From assembly GCF_000576555.1 (NCBI RefSeq), contig NZ_CP007145.1:1054001-1118000 (forward strand): a DNA stretch of 64,000 bases, given 5' to 3'. Positions 582 through 7,075 of the stretch are shown here, one piece after another. The notes under the pieces were generated by a model, which saw nothing but the letters and a program-made list of their open reading frames with translations, did not search any database and was not told where the DNA came from. Origin of the DNA: Hymenobacter swuensis DY53. Lineage in GTDB: Bacteria > Bacteroidota > Bacteroidia > Cytophagales > Hymenobacteraceae. Positions within the stretch are counted from its first letter, which is position 1. Every line of letters begins with the position of its first letter. The position numbers and the translations under genes are program-made.

Positions 582-3356
582 ATGAAGCACTTTTTACTTG
601 CTGGAGCTCTGATGACTACCTCCGTGGTGGCGGTGGCTCAAACCACTTACTCCATCAAAGGACGCGTACTGGATAAATTAACCGGGGAAGGCCTGCCCGG
701 TGCCACCGTGCAGGTGGTAGGCAATGGGGCCAACACCGGCGGCGGGGCCGAGGATAACGGCACCTACTCCGTAGCCGGCCTGAAACCCGGCACCTACACC
801 GTGCGGGCCTCCTTTATTGGCTATAAGGTGCTGGAGCAGCAGGTGACGGTGGGCAACCAGAACACTACCGCCACCTTCAACTTGGTGGCCGATAACGCTA
901 CCTTGAACGAGGTGCAGGTAGTTGGCTCGCTGGGCGTGGCCGTAGAACGCTCTACACCGGTGGCGTTTGCGGCCGTGAATGAGGTAAAGCTGCGCGAAAC
1001 CCTCTCCAACCGCGACCTGCCGATGATTCTTAACGAGACGCCCGGTGTGTACGCCACCCAGGGCGGCGGTGGCACCGGCGACTCCCGCATCAACATCCGG
1101 GGGTTCGACCAGCGCAACGTGGCCGTGCTGGTGAACGGGGTGCCCGTAAATGACATGGAAACCGGCCAGGTATTCTGGTCGAACTGGGATTTGGGCGACG
1201 TGACCAAGAGCCTGCAGGTGCAGCGCGGCCTGTCGGCTTCCAAGATTTCGGTGCCTTCCGTGGGCGGTACCATCAACGTCCTCACCAAGGGTTTCGATGA
1301 TAAGAAGGCAGCTCTGGCCCGGGTAGAAACCGGCTCCAACAACTACCAGAAATACTCCCTCATGCTCAGCAGCGGCACGCTGAAGGGCGACTGGGCCTTC
1401 ACCGCCTACGGCTCCCGCCGTACGTCCGATGGCTGGGTGGACAAGGCCTTTGATGATGCTTGGACCTACTTCGGCAACATCAGCAAACGGGCGGGCAACC
1501 ACCGCCTTTCCCTCACCGGCATGGGCTCCCCGCAGAGCCACGGCACCCGCTCCTTCCAAGCTGCGGTGGGGCTGTATTCCACCGAAAAGGCGGCAGAAAT
1601 TGGCGCTTCCCCCGTGGCCGGTGGCAACAAGGGCTTCTCCTACAACCCGTACTGGGGCACGCTCACGCGCTACGACCGGGACCCTACCACCCGGCAGGTA
1701 AGCAATGTGCAGGGTTCGGAAGTGCTGAACGAGCGGAGCAACTACTACCACAAGCCCCAGATCAACCTCAACGACTACTGGCAGGTAAACAGCAAGCTGT
1801 TCGTGAGTGCCGTGGCGTATGCCTCGTTTGGTAACGGGGGCGGGGTATCCGGCCTGACCAGCGGCAACTCCTCCACGCTCAGCCAGACAGTTGATGGCCA
1901 AACGAACTTCCAGGGTATTTATAATACCAACGTCCGCAACTACCCGTTCGTCTTCAACACCGCCACCCGTCGCAACGATACGCTGTTTACCGAGCAGCGG
2001 CAGTCGGGCTCTTTTTTGGTGAACAACGTGAACAGCCACCGCTGGTACGGCGGCGTACTAGGAGCCGATTATTCGCTCAACGACAAGGTGACTTTCTCGG
2101 CCGGGGTGGATGGCCGCCTATACCGGGGACTGCACTACCGTGAAGTGCGTGACTTGCTGGGCGGCGACTACGCCCGCACGATTGGCAACCTGAACGCCGA
2201 CCCAACGACCCGCCTGTATGAGGGGGACAAAATCAGCTACAACTACGACGGCAAAACCCAGTGGCTGGGCGGCTATGCCCAACTGGAGTACAAAACGCCC
2301 GTGCTGTCGGCCGTGGTAAGCGGTACCCTTTCCCAGATCCGCTACAAGCGCATCGATTATTTCCGGGCCAAGCAGGTGACCGTGGACGGGCAGAGCTACG
2401 ATGTGGGCTTCAACCAGACCCAGACCATCAATGGGCGCACGTACACCAGCGCCGATGGTCAGACAGTGGAAACGCCCTGGGCCGAATTCACGGGGTACAG
2501 TGTGAAGGCCGGAGCCAACTACAACGTAACGGAGCGCAACAACCTGTTCGTGAACGTGGGCTATAACAGCCGCGTACCGTTTTTTAACCAGGTGTATAAC
2601 ACCCAGGGTATTCGCTACAAGAGCGTGCAGCCCGAGGGCATCACCAGCATGGAACTGGGCTATGGTATCAGCTACCCCAGCCTAAAGGCCACGCTGAACG
2701 CTTATTATACCTTGTGGTCCAACAAATCCACCAACTCAGTTTCTACCGCTACGGGCGAGCCGGTGTACAGCTCGGTGCGTAACATTGACGCCCGCCACAT
2801 GGGCGTAGAGATGAGCGTGGCCCAGGAAATCAGCCGCAGCCTGCAGCTAAATGCCGCTATTTCATTGGGGGACTGGCGCTGGAAAGGCAAGGGCCTGCTC
2901 AACCAGGTAACAGAATCCAACGTGCAGGTAAACCAGCTGGACCAGCCCGTATTCCTGGACGGTGTGCACGTAGGCGACGCGGCACAAAACCAGTTCCAGC
3001 TGGGCCTGCGCTACGAGCCCATCCGGGGCCTGTACATCCGGCCTTCGTTCCTGGTGTTCTCGAAGTACTACGCCGCCTTCAACCCCGATAATATTCTGGA
3101 GGAAGCTTCTCGCACCGATGCTTACCGCCTGCCCACCAGCAAGAACCTGGACCTGCACTTCGGCTACGAGCTGAAGCCGGTGTACCAGGACAAGGTGCGC
3201 ATCAGCTTCCGGGCCTCGGTATTGAATGTGTTGAATGAGTTCTACTTTACTGACGTTTCGAACCGCAGCAACTCCAACGTGTTCGATGCCGGCAACCTGC
3301 AGGCCTTCTTCAACCGGGGCCGCACGTTCACGCTGGGCATGGCCGTGGGTCTGTAG
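582..3356 (+). CDS. TonB-dependent receptor with carboxypeptidase-regulatory-like domain
   Basis: An outer-membrane active transporter of about 924 residues. The ATG at 582 was preferred over an in-frame TTG at 558 because MKHFLLAGALMTTSVVAVAQ is a complete signal peptide. Domains in order: carboxypeptidase-D-regulatory-like beta sandwich (about 25-110, TYSIKGRVLDKLTGEGLPGA), TonB plug (about 130-230, with INIRGFDQRNVAVLVNGVPV and the FWSNWDLGDV segment), then a 22-strand-type barrel rich in alternating aromatic residues and ending FTLGMAVGL. No SusD-like partner lies nearby, so a polysaccharide locus is not indicated; substrate unknown (siderophore, vitamin or peptide are possible). It is followed by a strong hairpin shared with the convergent receiver gene. 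Confidence 0.93.
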   Translation: MKHFLLAGALMTTSVVAVAQTTYSIKGRVLDKLTGEGLPGATVQVVGNGANTGGGAEDNGTYSVAGLKPGTYTVRASFIGYKVLEQQVTVGNQNTTATFNLVADNATLNEVQVVGSLGVAVERSTPVAFAAVNEVKLRETLSNRDLPMILNETPGVYATQGGGGTGDSRINIRGFDQRNVAVLVNGVPVNDMETGQVFWSNWDLGDVTKSLQVQRGLSASKISVPSVGGTINVLTKGFDDKKAALARVETGSNNYQKYSLMLSSGTLKGDWAFTAYGSRRTSDGWVDKAFDDAWTYFGNISKRAGNHRLSLTGMGSPQSHGTRSFQAAVGLYSTEKAAEIGASPVAGGNKGFSYNPYWGTLTRYDRDPTTRQVSNVQGSEVLNERSNYYHKPQINLNDYWQVNSKLFVSAVAYASFGNGGGVSGLTSGNSSTLSQTVDGQTNFQGIYNTNVRNYPFVFNTATRRNDTLFTEQRQSGSFLVNNVNSHRWYGGVLGADYSLNDKVTFSAGVDGRLYRGLHYREVRDLLGGDYARTIGNLNADPTTRLYEGDKISYNYDGKTQWLGGYAQLEYKTPVLSAVVSGTLSQIRYKRIDYFRAKQVTVDGQSYDVGFNQTQTINGRTYTSADGQTVETPWAEFTGYSVKAGANYNVTERNNLFVNVGYNSRVPFFNQVYNTQGIRYKSVQPEGITSMELGYGISYPSLKATLNAYYTLWSNKSTNSVSTATGEPVYSSVRNIDARHMGVEMSVAQEISRSLQLNAAISLGDWRWKGKGLLNQVTESNVQVNQLDQPVFLDGVHVGDAAQNQFQLGLRYEPIRGLYIRPSFLVFSKYYAAFNPDNILEEASRTDAYRLPTSKNLDLHFGYELKPVYQDKVRISFRASVLNVLNEFYFTDVSNRSNSNVFDAGNLQAFFNRGRTFTLGMAVGL

Positions 3357-3376: not shown

Positions 3377-3423
3377 AAAACGACCAGAGCCGTTCCTGTT
3401 ACAGGAACGGCTCTGGTCGTTTT
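3377..3423. terminator. Bidirectional terminator hairpin, 23-bp arms
   Basis: Perfect inverted repeat (arms 3377-3399 and 3401-3423) with AAAA at one end and TTTT at the other, lying between the convergent receptor and receiver genes. It works as an intrinsic terminator in both directions. Confidence 0.85.
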
Positions 3424-3438: not shown

Positions 3439-3864
3439 CTAGAAAGAAGCTGTAAGAATGGGCTTGGAAGCCCCGGAGCCCGGGCGGGTATCAATAACGT
3501 GCTGAATGGCCCCAAGGACTTCCTCCGGACTGGCATTCTTGAGCAGATAACCGTGCGCGCCTTCGGCCCGCAGGGAATCAATCAGCTCGGGCTCATCGTG
3601 CATAGAAATGATGATAGAGCGCACCTGCGGGTACTGAGCGCGTAGTAGACGCACGGTTTGCAGGCCGTCCAGCACGGGCATCTGCAGATCCATCAGAATT
3701 ACATCCGGAATAGTGCCCTGGTCGAGGCGTTCTAGCAGCTCCTGTCCGTCGCCGGCCTCAAACAGCACTTCCATGCCTGGAAAGCCACTTATCAGAGCCC
3801 GAAGCCCTTTACGAAACAGAATATGGTCATCTACTACGGCCAGGCGAATGGAAGGTGTGCTCAT
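3439..3864 (-). CDS. Stand-alone response-regulator receiver (NarL-type, no HTH)
   Basis: 141 residues forming one complete receiver domain: acidic pair Asp12-Asp13, phospho-acceptor Asp59 in VILMDLQMP, the conserved switch region ISMHD and the lysine in YLLKN. The sequence resembles NarL/FixJ-type regulators, which normally continue into a LuxR helix-turn-helix to about 210 residues. Here the protein stops about 15 residues past the receiver and the terminator follows at once, so no DNA-binding domain remains, even in another frame. Its ATG overlaps the stop of the kinase gene by four bases (ATGA), which indicates translational coupling. It may act through protein contacts like CheY or serve as a phosphate sink; loss of an HTH domain is the alternative. 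Confidence 0.88.
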   Translation of the reverse strand: MSTPSIRLAVVDDHILFRKGLRALISGFPGMEVLFEAGDGQELLERLDQGTIPDVILMDLQMPVLDGLQTVRLLRAQYPQVRSIIISMHDEPELIDSLRAEGAHGYLLKNASPEEVLGAIQHVIDTRPGSGASKPILTASF

Positions 3865-4673
3865 GCTAGGGAAAGGCTAGTGGGCTGGTTGGTAACAAGA
3901 TACGGCAAGGGCAGGGAAATCCAAACCCGGGTGCCCTGGCCCGGAGCCGACTCATGGCGGAGAGTTCCGCGTAATACGCCCACGCGGCTGCGTAGGTTGG
4001 TGAGGCCCAGGCCGGTGCGGGAGCCGGGCAGGGGAGGTTGGTCGGAAATGGTGGGGTCGAAGCCCACGCCGTTATCGGAGTAGCGCAGGGCCAGCGAATC
4101 GGCTCCGTATTCGACGGTAATCTGGATTTGGCTGGCGTGGGCGTGGCGCAGCCCGTTACCCAGTAGCTCCTGCACCACGCGGTACACAATCAGCTCATAC
4201 TTAGGATCAAGACGGCGCGGAATGCCGGTTTGTTCTACCTCCACCTGCGTGGGTCCGTCGGCGGGCATGGTGCGGGCCAGGGCTTCGAGGGCGAAGGAAA
4301 GGCCGAATTTCTGGAGTGCGGCCGGCAGCAGGTTGCGCGAAATCCGGCGCACCTCGTTGATGGCCTGGTCGAGCAGGATGGTGGCTTCCTGGGTGAGGTC
4401 GGGTTGGTTGAGCGTGTTCAGGTGCAGCTTCACGATGGCCAGGGTGGTGCCCACCCCGTCGTGCAAATCGGCGGCAATACGGCGCCGTTCTTCTTCCTGG
4501 GCCAGCAGCGCCGCCTCCAGGGCCTGCTGCTGGGCACTTTCGTGCAGCTCCTGTACTTCCTGCTGCTGCTGAATCAGCCGCCGCTGGTAGCGCACCACAA
4601 AGCCCACGATGCCCAGTGCCAATAACAGCAGAATGGGCGTCACCAGAACCAAGGGTAGAATTGCGTCGGGCAT
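3861..4673 (-). CDS. Sensor histidine kinase, HisKA_3/HATPase type, no sensor domain
   Basis: 270 residues. One N-terminal membrane helix (about 5-27) leads to a Gln/Glu-rich coiled coil (31-65), then the HisKA_3 dimerisation helix with phospho-accepting His71 in AADLHDGVG, and a HATPase domain with the N-box ELLGNGLRHAHAS (about 170-182), DNGVGFD (G1) and the TGLGLTNLRSR region. There is almost no extracytoplasmic sequence, so signal perception must come from a partner. The two multi-pass membrane proteins just upstream are obvious candidates. The gap to the upstream membrane-protein gene is 53 bases and holds a TACTTTAG sequence on the minus strand, so it may be in one operon or have its own weak promoter. 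Confidence 0.92.
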   Translation of the reverse strand: MPDAILPLVLVTPILLLLALGIVGFVVRYQRRLIQQQQEVQELHESAQQQALEAALLAQEEERRRIAADLHDGVGTTLAIVKLHLNTLNQPDLTQEATILLDQAINEVRRISRNLLPAALQKFGLSFALEALARTMPADGPTQVEVEQTGIPRRLDPKYELIVYRVVQELLGNGLRHAHASQIQITVEYGADSLALRYSDNGVGFDPTISDQPPLPGSRTGLGLTNLRSRVGVLRGTLRHESAPGQGTRVWISLPLPYLVTNQPTSLSLA

Positions 4674-4726
4674 TGAAGAAAAGCAGGCGGCTGCATAACT
4701 ATTCGGCTAAAGTAAACTAAACGCTT

Positions 4727-5491
4727 CTATTTCGAATGGTTAACCGACTGGGAAATGGGTGAATGAAGCGGTACCGGCCGCTTCCCAAAGCGGAAACGTA
4801 GCCATCCGGGCAACGCCCGGCGCGGAGCCGGACCGCCCGGTAAAATGCTCAGCAGGTAAATCAGCAGCCCCACTTGTAGTACCCGGAGCGGCGGATAAAG
4901 CAGCATGCTGCTAATAGTCGCACTATTTCCAGGAAAGCGGGCTGAGATGCCAGCAGGCAGTAACTCCTGCACAATAAACACCAGCGTTGAGCATGGATAG
5001 TACAGCAGAACCATTGCCCCCAGAACAAGCTCTGGGTTCTTTTCTGGTGGGCCGGCCGGCTGTAAATTCCAGACATGGTACATGGCCAGCATTGTTAGGA
5101 GGCTGTTGCCGGCTATGCGGCTTACCACGTTGATGCTGCTCATGAATGGATCAAACCACAATGCATCGCTGAGGGCTATCAACACAAATATGGCCCAGCA
5201 CCAGCCAAGTATTTGTCGCTGCTTATAGGGAAGTAACACACCAAACGCCCAGCAAAGCGTAGTGACATCGAAAGCAGTAGAGAGATGATAATTGAAGATG
5301 TTGTTATGTAAAATAACCCGGCCAAACATGTCCAACAGTAGGCAAATTACGTCACCAGCCAAATAGAAATATACCGGCCGAAAGCTTTGTGGTAGCAAAG
5401 ACTTTCGGCCGGTATAGATGACAAACGGAATTACGGTAAGATTACCGCATATCCTTAACAGAAGAACCAGATTGCTTAGTGATATAGGCAC
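4727..5491 (-). CDS. Multi-pass (about 7 TM) membrane protein, second copy of duplicated module
   Basis: 254 residues with about seven hydrophobic helices and a basic, Pro-rich cytoplasmic tail (GWLRFRFGKRPVP). No known family recognised. It begins with GTG one base after the TGA of the small CPPxC gene, so the two are translationally coupled. Length, helix count and gene order match the membrane protein at 5990-6685, although identity by eye is low, which suggests an old duplication. GC is lower than in neighbouring housekeeping genes. Its position directly upstream of a kinase lacking a sensor domain suggests a receptor or signal-input role; that is inference. Confidence 0.75.
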   Translation of the reverse strand: MPISLSNLVLLLRICGNLTVIPFVIYTGRKSLLPQSFRPVYFYLAGDVICLLLDMFGRVILHNNIFNYHLSTAFDVTTLCWAFGVLLPYKQRQILGWCWAIFVLIALSDALWFDPFMSSINVVSRIAGNSLLTMLAMYHVWNLQPAGPPEKNPELVLGAMVLLYYPCSTLVFIVQELLPAGISARFPGNSATISSMLLYPPLRVLQVGLLIYLLSILPGGPAPRRALPGWLRFRFGKRPVPLHSPISQSVNHSK

Positions 5492-5492
5492 A

Positions 5493-5906
5493 TCAGGTAT
5501 TCATTGGGCTCGTAGGGTCACACACAGGTGGACATTTTAGGGTCGAATCCCCCACAATACCGTCCTCATTCAGCAACTCGCCGGTTGGGCCGGTGCGGGG
5601 TATCAGGTCGTAGCCGTTCACGTCTACGCCCACGGCCAGCAGTTGGTACTCGTCTTTGCTCTTGTCGCCGGTCAGGTCCTGCTCCAGGCCCATGTAGAAG
5701 CGGATGCCCACGCAACCGGGCTGCTTCTGAATGGTGTCGAGCATCTCGTTACCAAAGTAATACGCTTTAATACGCTTCCGGCCGGCCAGCTCCTCCTGGG
5801 TCTGGGGCTGGTTGCGGTAATTGGCGGTCCACTGCTCGGCCTCAGCGGGTGGAATGGGGGCTCCGGCGTTGGGGTTGAAACCGGGAATAGGGTCGGTGAA
5901 AAGCAT
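5493..5906 (-). CDS. Small soluble protein with C-terminal CPPxC tail, second copy
   Basis: 137 residues, no signal peptide, no membrane helix, no recognised domain name. It aligns by eye with the protein at 6686-7075: a W(T)xxY/FR segment near residue 26, then GxRFYxG, then VxVDVxGxDL, then IVG and a tail CPPVC followed by T and ending MNT. The middle strands GIRFYMG and LLAVGVDVNGYDL look like a small alpha/beta fold, with a Cys pair or metal-binding tail. The start context on the plus strand, catacggtgtg (5904-5914), is identical to that of the other copy. The function is unknown; the fixed partner is the membrane protein one base downstream. Confidence 0.75.
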   Translation of the reverse strand: MLFTDPIPGFNPNAGAPIPPAEAEQWTANYRNQPQTQEELAGRKRIKAYYFGNEMLDTIQKQPGCVGIRFYMGLEQDLTGDKSKDEYQLLAVGVDVNGYDLIPRTGPTGELLNEDGIVGDSTLKCPPVCDPTSPMNT

Positions 5907-5989
5907 ACGGTGTGTGTGGGTAGGAGAGAAGAGGTATTTCGGGGTAATATAGAACTATCAGAATCAAAAACGTGACCTCCTGGCTATGC

Positions 5990-6685
5990 TCATCTGATAA
6001 CTTGTAATTCACTAGCTGGTATCCGGCAACTGAGCCAGAAAGCCCGCGTGAAGAAAGCAGCTAGTACAAGTAGCAGCATGCTGTTGATGGAATACAGCAA
6101 CGACATGCCTACTCCGTCATCGGTTTGCAGAAACGTATTGCTCCCTAGGTAAATGGCGACCGTGCCGGCCAGATACAACACAATGCCAGTGCCGGCAATC
6201 AGGAGCGGCCGACGATGGGTGTTAGTCGGCGCCAAGTGGCGGATTTCCTGTTCAAAATACAGTAGCACCAGCAGAATGCCCAGAAAGCTTTCCAGGGCGA
6301 TGGTGTAGCTGTTGAGTTGCGTTAACCCTTCCAACACCAAGGAATCAAGCGCGGCGAAGGCTAGAAAGCCTCCCAGTAGCCACCGCCGCCACGGCCGCAA
6401 CCGAGGCAACAGTAAGCTAAAGGCACAGATGTAGCACACCGTCTCGCCAATGGCGGCAAGGTGTGCTAGCCAGATGTTCTGCAAACCAAAGGCTACCGTC
6501 AGGCGCATCAACGTAAAAAGAACTAACATAAAGGCCGGTACAACAGCCAAAAGTTGTACCGGCCTCGTAAGCCGTTGCCAATGCACCAATGCCACACCCG
6601 CCGGAATGCTGAGGCTGCAGTAGGCCAGCACTTCCAGATAATCCGCTACCCGAGGTAGCCAGGCGGCTAGGGCACCATCGGTCAT
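5990..6685 (-). CDS. Multi-pass (about 7 TM) membrane protein, first copy of duplicated module
   Basis: 231 residues with about seven hydrophobic helices, no long loops and no recognised family. The ATG follows directly on the TAA of the upstream CPPxC gene (TAAATG), with no spacer. This is the same arrangement as in the second copy. Loops carry few charged residues and no obvious enzyme motif; possible conserved positions include the glutamate in IGETVCYICAF and the LxRLTVAFGL segment. A receptor, anchor or processing role for the small partner protein would each fit. Confidence 0.75.
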   Translation of the reverse strand: MTDGALAAWLPRVADYLEVLAYCSLSIPAGVALVHWQRLTRPVQLLAVVPAFMLVLFTLMRLTVAFGLQNIWLAHLAAIGETVCYICAFSLLLPRLRPWRRWLLGGFLAFAALDSLVLEGLTQLNSYTIALESFLGILLVLLYFEQEIRHLAPTNTHRRPLLIAGTGIVLYLAGTVAIYLGSNTFLQTDDGVGMSLLYSINSMLLLVLAAFFTRAFWLSCRIPASELQVIR

Positions 6686-7075
6686 TTAGCTGTTGAGTAG
6701 ATTGGTAACACTGCAGCAGGGCGGGCAGGTTTTACCCGGACCTACTATCGGGTCGTCATCAGAACTACTCAGGCTGGCGGTGGCCATTAGCATCGACTCT
6801 CCTTCCGTTGGCATCTGTCGGAGTGGTGTGTCTACTAAATCGTTGCCATCGACATCCACGGCCACCATCACCAGTTGCGGATGATTCTCTTCGTCGCGGC
6901 CATAGTAGAACCGTAAGCCCGTCGCATCGGAGCGGGATAGTAAGGCTTCCAGCGCGGCGCGGTCGAACAGGTGGCCTTTCACGGCGTGCTCACTTTGCTC
7001 CCGGAAACGGCGGGTCCATTCGCCGGCCTGTTCGAGGGTGAAGGGTTGTTTGGGCGCTTCGGAAAGAGAATCCAT
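6686..7075 (-). CDS. Small soluble protein with C-terminal CPPCC tail, first copy
   Basis: 129 residues, paralogue of the 137-residue protein at 5493-5906. Shared features in order: EWTRRFR, a basic-hydrophobic stretch VKGHLFDRAALEALL, GLRFYYG, LVMVAVDVDGNDLV, IVG, and the ending CPPCCSVTNLLNS. The middle is longer in acidic and serine residues (SLSSSDDDP). It is the first gene of the minus-strand run, with a perfect TATATTTG -7 element 47 bases upstream. No known function; the conserved Cys-Pro-Pro tail at the extreme C terminus is the feature to follow. Confidence 0.75.
   Translation of the reverse strand: MDSLSEAPKQPFTLEQAGEWTRRFREQSEHAVKGHLFDRAALEALLSRSDATGLRFYYGRDEENHPQLVMVAVDVDGNDLVDTPLRQMPTEGESMLMATASLSSSDDDPIVGPGKTCPPCCSVTNLLNS

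Follow-up and report, generated by a model that had tools for sequence, protein, structure and literature searches.

A seven-helix membrane protein and its tail-bearing partner as the likely input of a two-component system in a recurrent Bacteroidota cassette

Six minus-strand genes between positions 7075 and 3439 of a 64,000-nucleotide stretch of Hymenobacter swuensis DY53 (GCF_000576555.1, contig NZ_CP007145.1, positions 1,054,001 to 1,118,000 of the forward strand; hereafter the window) encode, in order, a small protein (small A), a seven-transmembrane (7TM) protein (7TM-A), a second small protein (small B), a second 7TM protein (7TM-B), a histidine kinase and a receiver. We consider it likely that each small protein, which ends in a conserved tail, and the 7TM protein encoded next to it constitute a partner-receptor pair that feeds the two-component system. 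The cassette is recurrent across Bacteroidota. The gene content, order and coupling of the cassette, its recurrence, the constancy of the tail, the charge topology of the membrane proteins and the co-divergence of the sensory pair are direct observations. The features of the locus are as follows.

6686..7075, minus strand: small A, a leaderless type 1 tail protein of 129 amino acids (sequence and family alignment A3).
6689..6727, minus strand: C-terminal tail of small A, CPPCC plus 8 residues (sequence and motif statistics).
5990..6685, minus strand: 7TM-A, proposed receptor of 231 amino acids (family profile A4, E 2.4e-54).
5493..5906, minus strand: small B, a leaderless type 1 tail protein of 137 amino acids (sequence).
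5496..5534, minus strand: C-terminal tail of small B, CPPVC plus 8 residues (sequence and motif statistics).
4727..5491, minus strand: 7TM-B, proposed receptor of 254 amino acids with a GTG start and seven helices in its model (sequence and structure model).
3861..4673, minus strand: HisKA_3 histidine kinase of 270 amino acids with one N-terminal membrane helix and no sensor domain (Pfam).
3439..3864, minus strand: stand-alone NarL-like receiver of 141 amino acids with no DNA-binding domain (Pfam).
3377..3423, no strand assigned: perfect inverted repeat of 22 bases with a 3-base loop and a T run (read from the sequence).

Coordinates and Pfam bear out the six-gene order given in the original prediction, as well as its claim that each small gene abuts its membrane gene: the intergenic gaps, in gene order, are 0 (A pair), 83, 1 (B pair) and 53 bases, followed by a 4-base overlap of kinase and receiver. 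Small A and small B are themselves related, with 31% identity in alignment A1, and exactly 8 residues follow the motif in each tail, CPPCC-SVTNLLNS in the former and CPPVC-DPTSPMNT in the latter. In the kinase, Pfam identifies HisKA_3 at residues 62-119 (E 8.1e-9, 36.4 bits against a cut-off of 24) and HATPase_c at 162-257 (E 8.8e-18), and the adjoining, overlapping gene encodes Response_reg alone (E 1.4e-23) with no C-terminal GerE, so that both halves of a HisKA_3-type two-component system are present. The kinase had been described as lacking any sensing part; Pfam indeed finds no sensor domain, but the protein is not wholly bare, for a single N-terminal membrane helix precedes the catalytic domains. 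The inverted repeat is probably a terminator ending the operon and common to the plus-strand gene that runs towards it and stops at 3356; it is absent from the list given by the scan, and a promoter scan restricted to the sigma-70 type found no match upstream of small A. In the protein database, 7TM-B (P0030) is recorded as 200 amino acids beginning at an internal Met; a GTG lying 54 codons further upstream is the start that agrees with the relatives, and it brings in the first helices.

A search of 120 genomes of the genus revealed relatives of the small protein (P0001) in 78, and the profile built from 37 small proteins (A3) matches 77 of 395 class genomes, representing 47 of 196 genera, and 34 of 296 genomes of a phylum sample; six of those 34 belong to other classes (families f81 and f105). 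No copies of P0001 were found in a plasmid collection. We examined 121 loci, picked by rank and variety: the window, 60 from the genus search, 40 from the class search and 20 mainly from the phylum sample. Because these loci were found by way of the small protein, the counts describe its company only. They contain 155 open reading frames (ORFs) of the small family, 141 with a single domain and 14 with two. Of the 141 single-domain ORFs, 130 are followed directly by a multi-helix membrane gene (gap of -60 to 300 bases) and, no more than 4.5 kb away and in the same orientation, by a kinase, and 124 have the receiver as well; in double modules both small genes are counted singly though they have the kinase in common. 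Thus the predicted association of the CPPxC/7TM pair with a HisKA_3-type kinase holds. Within Hymenobacter all three downstream genes accompany 79 of 83 small ORFs; outside the genus membrane gene and kinase accompany 51 of 58, and membrane gene, kinase and receiver 45 of 58. The gap between small and membrane gene is 30 bases or less in 105 of 139 cases, and outside the genus the membrane and kinase genes often share a 22-base overlap. With just 5 HisKA_3 kinases in the 5.25 Mb of the H. swuensis genome, this gene order cannot be an accident of kinase density, and because flanking genes vary between most loci in our context comparison, the gene set appears to move or persist as a unit. Exceptions to the gene order include loci L083, L126, L132, L177, L182, L194 and L195, and the two-domain ORFs differ, with membrane gene and kinase in 5 of 14.

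Several loci merit separate description. Two-domain members at L073 (6279-8496), L078 (6719-7450), L089 (6834-7577) and L095 (6118-6861) stand without 7TM or kinase genes; they combine lipoprotein-like N-termini with the CPPxC tail, and in three of these loci a RecQ-like gene, named by eye, adjoins them. In family f55 (L184, L185, L188, L189, L190) the cassette keeps a fixed genomic place, with a 514-amino-acid gene (DnaB in L184) and a 317-amino-acid gene (ACCA in L184) upstream in four of five loci and a 419-amino-acid gene of no known family downstream; L190 shows the downstream gene alone in view, and carries a second, lipoprotein-like small protein within the cassette. Most Hymenobacter cassettes examined have a receiver of 131-162 amino acids without the DNA-binding domain carried by L065 and by class members. 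GerE was present in four of five regulators scanned (L127, L161, L184 and L065, not L037).

The most consistent property of the small proteins is their tail, of the type D-[FLMI]-x-x-P-C-P-x-x-C. Of 135 module proteins, 106 have CP..C among their final 60 residues, as against 0 of 530 other called genes of Hymenobacter loci, and exactly 8 residues follow it in 72 of the 106. A CP or PP near the C-terminal end is retained by 131 of the 135, and the Cys pair is missing from 29. Given these 29 proteins without CP..C and the 131 that keep CP or PP, we have not adopted the view that the two Cys serve chiefly in metal binding or redox chemistry.

Seen from the membrane protein, the distribution is broader still. 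The profile of 57 7TM proteins (A4) detects the family in 56 of 61 Hymenobacter genomes (small protein: 40 of 61) and, at the level of the class, in 81 of 295 genomes, which makes the 7TM family wider than the small family; up to 6 members occur in one genome among the matches listed. A protein-database search with A4 returned 17 proteins among 7994 scored candidates, those sharing most words. In 20 Hymenobacter stretches with no small relative nearby, the gene before the 7TM mostly encodes a longer soluble protein of ~220-320 amino acids that carries exactly the same tail at its end (e.g. FFDMSSPCPPKC and YYDISKPCPPAC); the four of these that were scanned have no Pfam match. A second cassette in the H. 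swuensis genome itself (L196 4087-6563, contig C3 ~2847586-2850062) comprises a 321-amino-acid protein ending in YYDLTAPCPRTC, a 7TM protein and a kinase. Elsewhere in the class the partner may be a lipoprotein with the tail, as in L228, L245, L248, L255, L256, L263 and L265; in L256 (1868-4799) one 7TM gene lies between two lipoprotein-like genes with nearly identical tails (FFDITEPCPNACG and FLDITEPCPNACG).

We classified by rule the ORF upstream of 75 7TM genes (21 selected for having no small relative, 33 top hits and 21 lower hits). At 41 of these genes the upstream ORF carries CP..C within its final 60 residues, and at 16 it has a looser CP/PP tail, a generous class in which two members (L198 and L201) look like spurious ORFs; the rest are 9 without a tail, 5 without an upstream ORF and 4 that are the second of two 7TM genes. 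The same tail is therefore found on unrelated-looking partners upstream of a single 7TM family. It is here that the original prediction needs amendment: as judged from these sequences, what is constant among cassette partners is the C-terminal tail and not the fold family of the small protein, since upstream partners come from other families too. A further qualification is that some 7TM genes of the family stand without a tail gene or kinase. Relatives without a kinase follow a 454-amino-acid protein, or a 197-amino-acid frame of it, in L197, L198 and L211, and lie among genes conserved between both loci in L209 and L214; these relatives may form a distinct branch with a different function.

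The model of 7TM-B has seven helices (predicted local distance difference test, pLDDT, 78.4; predicted template modelling score, pTM, 0.73), and in 57 of 57 7TM sequences the charge distribution places the N-terminus outside and the C-terminus inside, the topology of G-protein-coupled receptors (GPCRs). We propose that the 7TM protein would act as the sensor, touching the single membrane helix of the kinase and so setting its activity, and that the kinase would then pass the signal to the response regulator. The tail protein would be the dedicated partner of the 7TM protein, engaging it through the C-terminal tail either as a ligand or as a co-receptor that binds the ligand and inserts its tail into the 7TM protein; in Hymenobacter, pairs A and B would often both feed one kinase. 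The signalling role originally proposed is supported; control of the kinase by the 7TM protein, binding of the tail to that protein as ligand or regulator, the side on which leaderless tail proteins act, the stimulus and the regulated target are inferred rather than observed.

The compartment of the tail protein bears directly on this proposal. Among 162 distinct cassettes, the tail protein is leaderless in 145 and has a hydrophobic N-terminus in 17, of which 7 have a lipobox by a simple rule. Small A and small B cannot conceal a signal peptide, because their open frames (144 and 153 amino acids) leave at most ~16 codons upstream of the chosen starts. The inner loops and C-terminus of the 7TM proteins are positively charged and partly conserved. 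All three observations suit an alternative that we regard as a real possibility, if short of an even chance, namely that the leaderless tail protein is a cytoplasmic regulator, such as an adaptor or inhibitor, whose tail attaches it to the inner face of the 7TM protein or to the kinase, while the 7TM protein responds to a different cue, either within the membrane or outside. In a quickly built kinase tree (87 rows, many weak branches), however, the exported label (13 rows) requires 10 changes, at least 7 of them by well-supported branches, compared with 12.4 on average when labels are shuffled, so the label is scattered but not randomly. Our interpretation is that one receptor family has changed repeatedly between leaderless and exported partners; a role confined to the inner face predicts neither the exported partners nor the switching. 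The pattern favours action outside for the exported tail proteins, and the leaderless ones, those of the window included, are compatible with either side. With about the same reserve, we can envisage protein-ligand signalling throughout the phylum, in which each receptor of GPCR topology would have its own co-made protein partner, with the C-terminal CPxxC tail as the agonist, and would act on a separate sensor-less kinase, the ligand scaffolds being exchanged while the tail stays.

It is also conceivable, though unlikely, that the 7TM protein is an enzyme or transporter, with the kinase and receiver as its regulator and the tail protein as its substrate or cofactor carrier. The polar residues conserved among the 57 members (N64 in 91%, Y164 in 82%, E75 in 60%) could form a catalytic or binding site, the kinase-free relatives at L197, L198 and L211 are in keeping with such a role, and a lone HlyIII match (1 of 57 members, E 0.0011) would be too, had we not discarded it as chance. 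Against this, no Pfam enzyme or transporter family is matched by more than 1 of the 57 at E <= 0.1, the kinase has no other input, and the kinase and 7TM genes often overlap outside the genus. Pfam scans of the 6 window proteins and of all members of A1 (23), A3 (37) and A4 (57) yielded no family that fits the small or 7TM proteins, and the check on known transporter and enzyme families that came with the original prediction was thus passed; there were scattered weak hits alone, and among these EGF_Tme5 (8 of 23 A1 members, best E 0.0037; 2 of 37 A3 members), Phage_T4_Ndd (7 of 23 A1 members, best E 0.1) and CD47 (E 0.25) were likewise discarded as chance. NCBIfam, applied to the 6 window proteins, has no family for the small or 7TM proteins, and PADLOC defence models matched 0 families in 4 window proteins. 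Searches of the PDB by sequence gave a best E of 0.74 for the small profile; for the 7TM profile the best match was to SMR four-helix transporters at E 0.011 over 76 residues, with YetJ at E 3.8, which we do not take as kinship.

Divergence within the cassette separates the sensory pair from the signalling core. Averaged over 23 double modules, kinases share 79.6% identity (87% in the membrane helix) and receivers 81.7%, as against 38.5% for 7TM-A, 35.5% for 7TM-B, 46.6% for small A and 46.9% for small B. With kinase distance held constant, the partial correlation of distances is 0.83 between small A and 7TM-A and 0.84 between small B and 7TM-B; for the crossed pairs it is 0.40 and 0.29, lower yet significant by permutation (p 0.001 and 0.003). 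The sensory pair thus diverges fast while kinase and receiver do not, and each small protein tracks its own 7TM protein. Such co-divergence fits a matched partner-receptor pair, although the same result could arise if adjacent genes were exchanged together as a block. Fast, pair-specific divergence, and the row of precursor-like gene, membrane gene, kinase and regulator, would also fit an Agr-like secreted signal, the tail protein being a precursor whose released tail is sensed by neighbours through the 7TM protein, but we think this the least probable explanation, as the tail is the conserved and not the variable part, no export or processing gene is constant in the contexts (by eye and from transmembrane counts, with no systematic neighbour scan), Pfam finds no Agr-type protein (AgrB/AgrD) in the window, and the window kinase has a single helix, unlike the Agr kinase, which carries its own multi-helix sensor.

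No description of the cassette was found in the literature searched, whose coverage excludes most subscription journals and preprints, and to that extent the earlier statement, that its author knew of no described system with these genes, stands. The nearest relatives in organization are two-component systems with an accessory protein. In the available portion of PMC11237479, LiaF-LiaS-LiaR is described as a two-component system with an accessory membrane protein; as in the window, a membrane gene adjoins a HisKA_3-type kinase and a NarL-type regulator, and a separate membrane protein is thought to set kinase activity. The window differs in having a seven-helix protein with a tail-protein partner, and neither Pfam nor NCBIfam detects a LiaF-type match in its 7TM proteins. 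A separate protein also alters the state of a two-component system in QseG-QseE, where an accessory lipoprotein acts on the kinase (PMC12691602, PMC6075780, in part), and in PorA-PorXY, where PorA acts on PorXY and the title names a C-terminal domain (PMC7712824, in part). As far as those partial texts go, these two lack a seven-helix receptor in between, and we liken them to the cassette by description and not by sequence. In 7TMR-DISM, 7TMR-HD and the LytS-type kinase BtsS with its 7TM sensor, all named in the portion of PMC10653868 available, a kinase or another output domain likewise receives its signal through seven helices, which in those proteins are fused to it, whereas in the window receptor and kinase are separate genes. 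The Pfam models 7TMR-DISM, 7TMR-HD and 5TMR-LYT match neither the window 7TM proteins (E <= 1) nor the 57 members (E <= 0.1).

Microbial rhodopsins with separate transducers, and GPCRs, are also among the closest known systems. The retinal Lys of rhodopsins is absent from helix 7 of 7TM-B (187-216) and from the matching last helix of 7TM-A; a Lys anywhere in the helix 7 stretch occurs in 21 of 57 relatives. The window gene set resembles a two-component system equipped with a separate accessory sensor in the membrane, and the tests run place it in none of the 7TMR, LytS-type, LiaF, Agr and rhodopsin families.

If the proposed partner-receptor pairing is correct, a large part of Bacteroidota would use separate seven-helix receptors and their dedicated protein partners as the inputs of two-component systems. 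Kinases without sensor domains would gain a sensor, and two protein families absent from the libraries searched would gain a name. The cassette would, moreover, offer a simple bacterial model for the genetics of protein-tail recognition by a seven-helix receptor.

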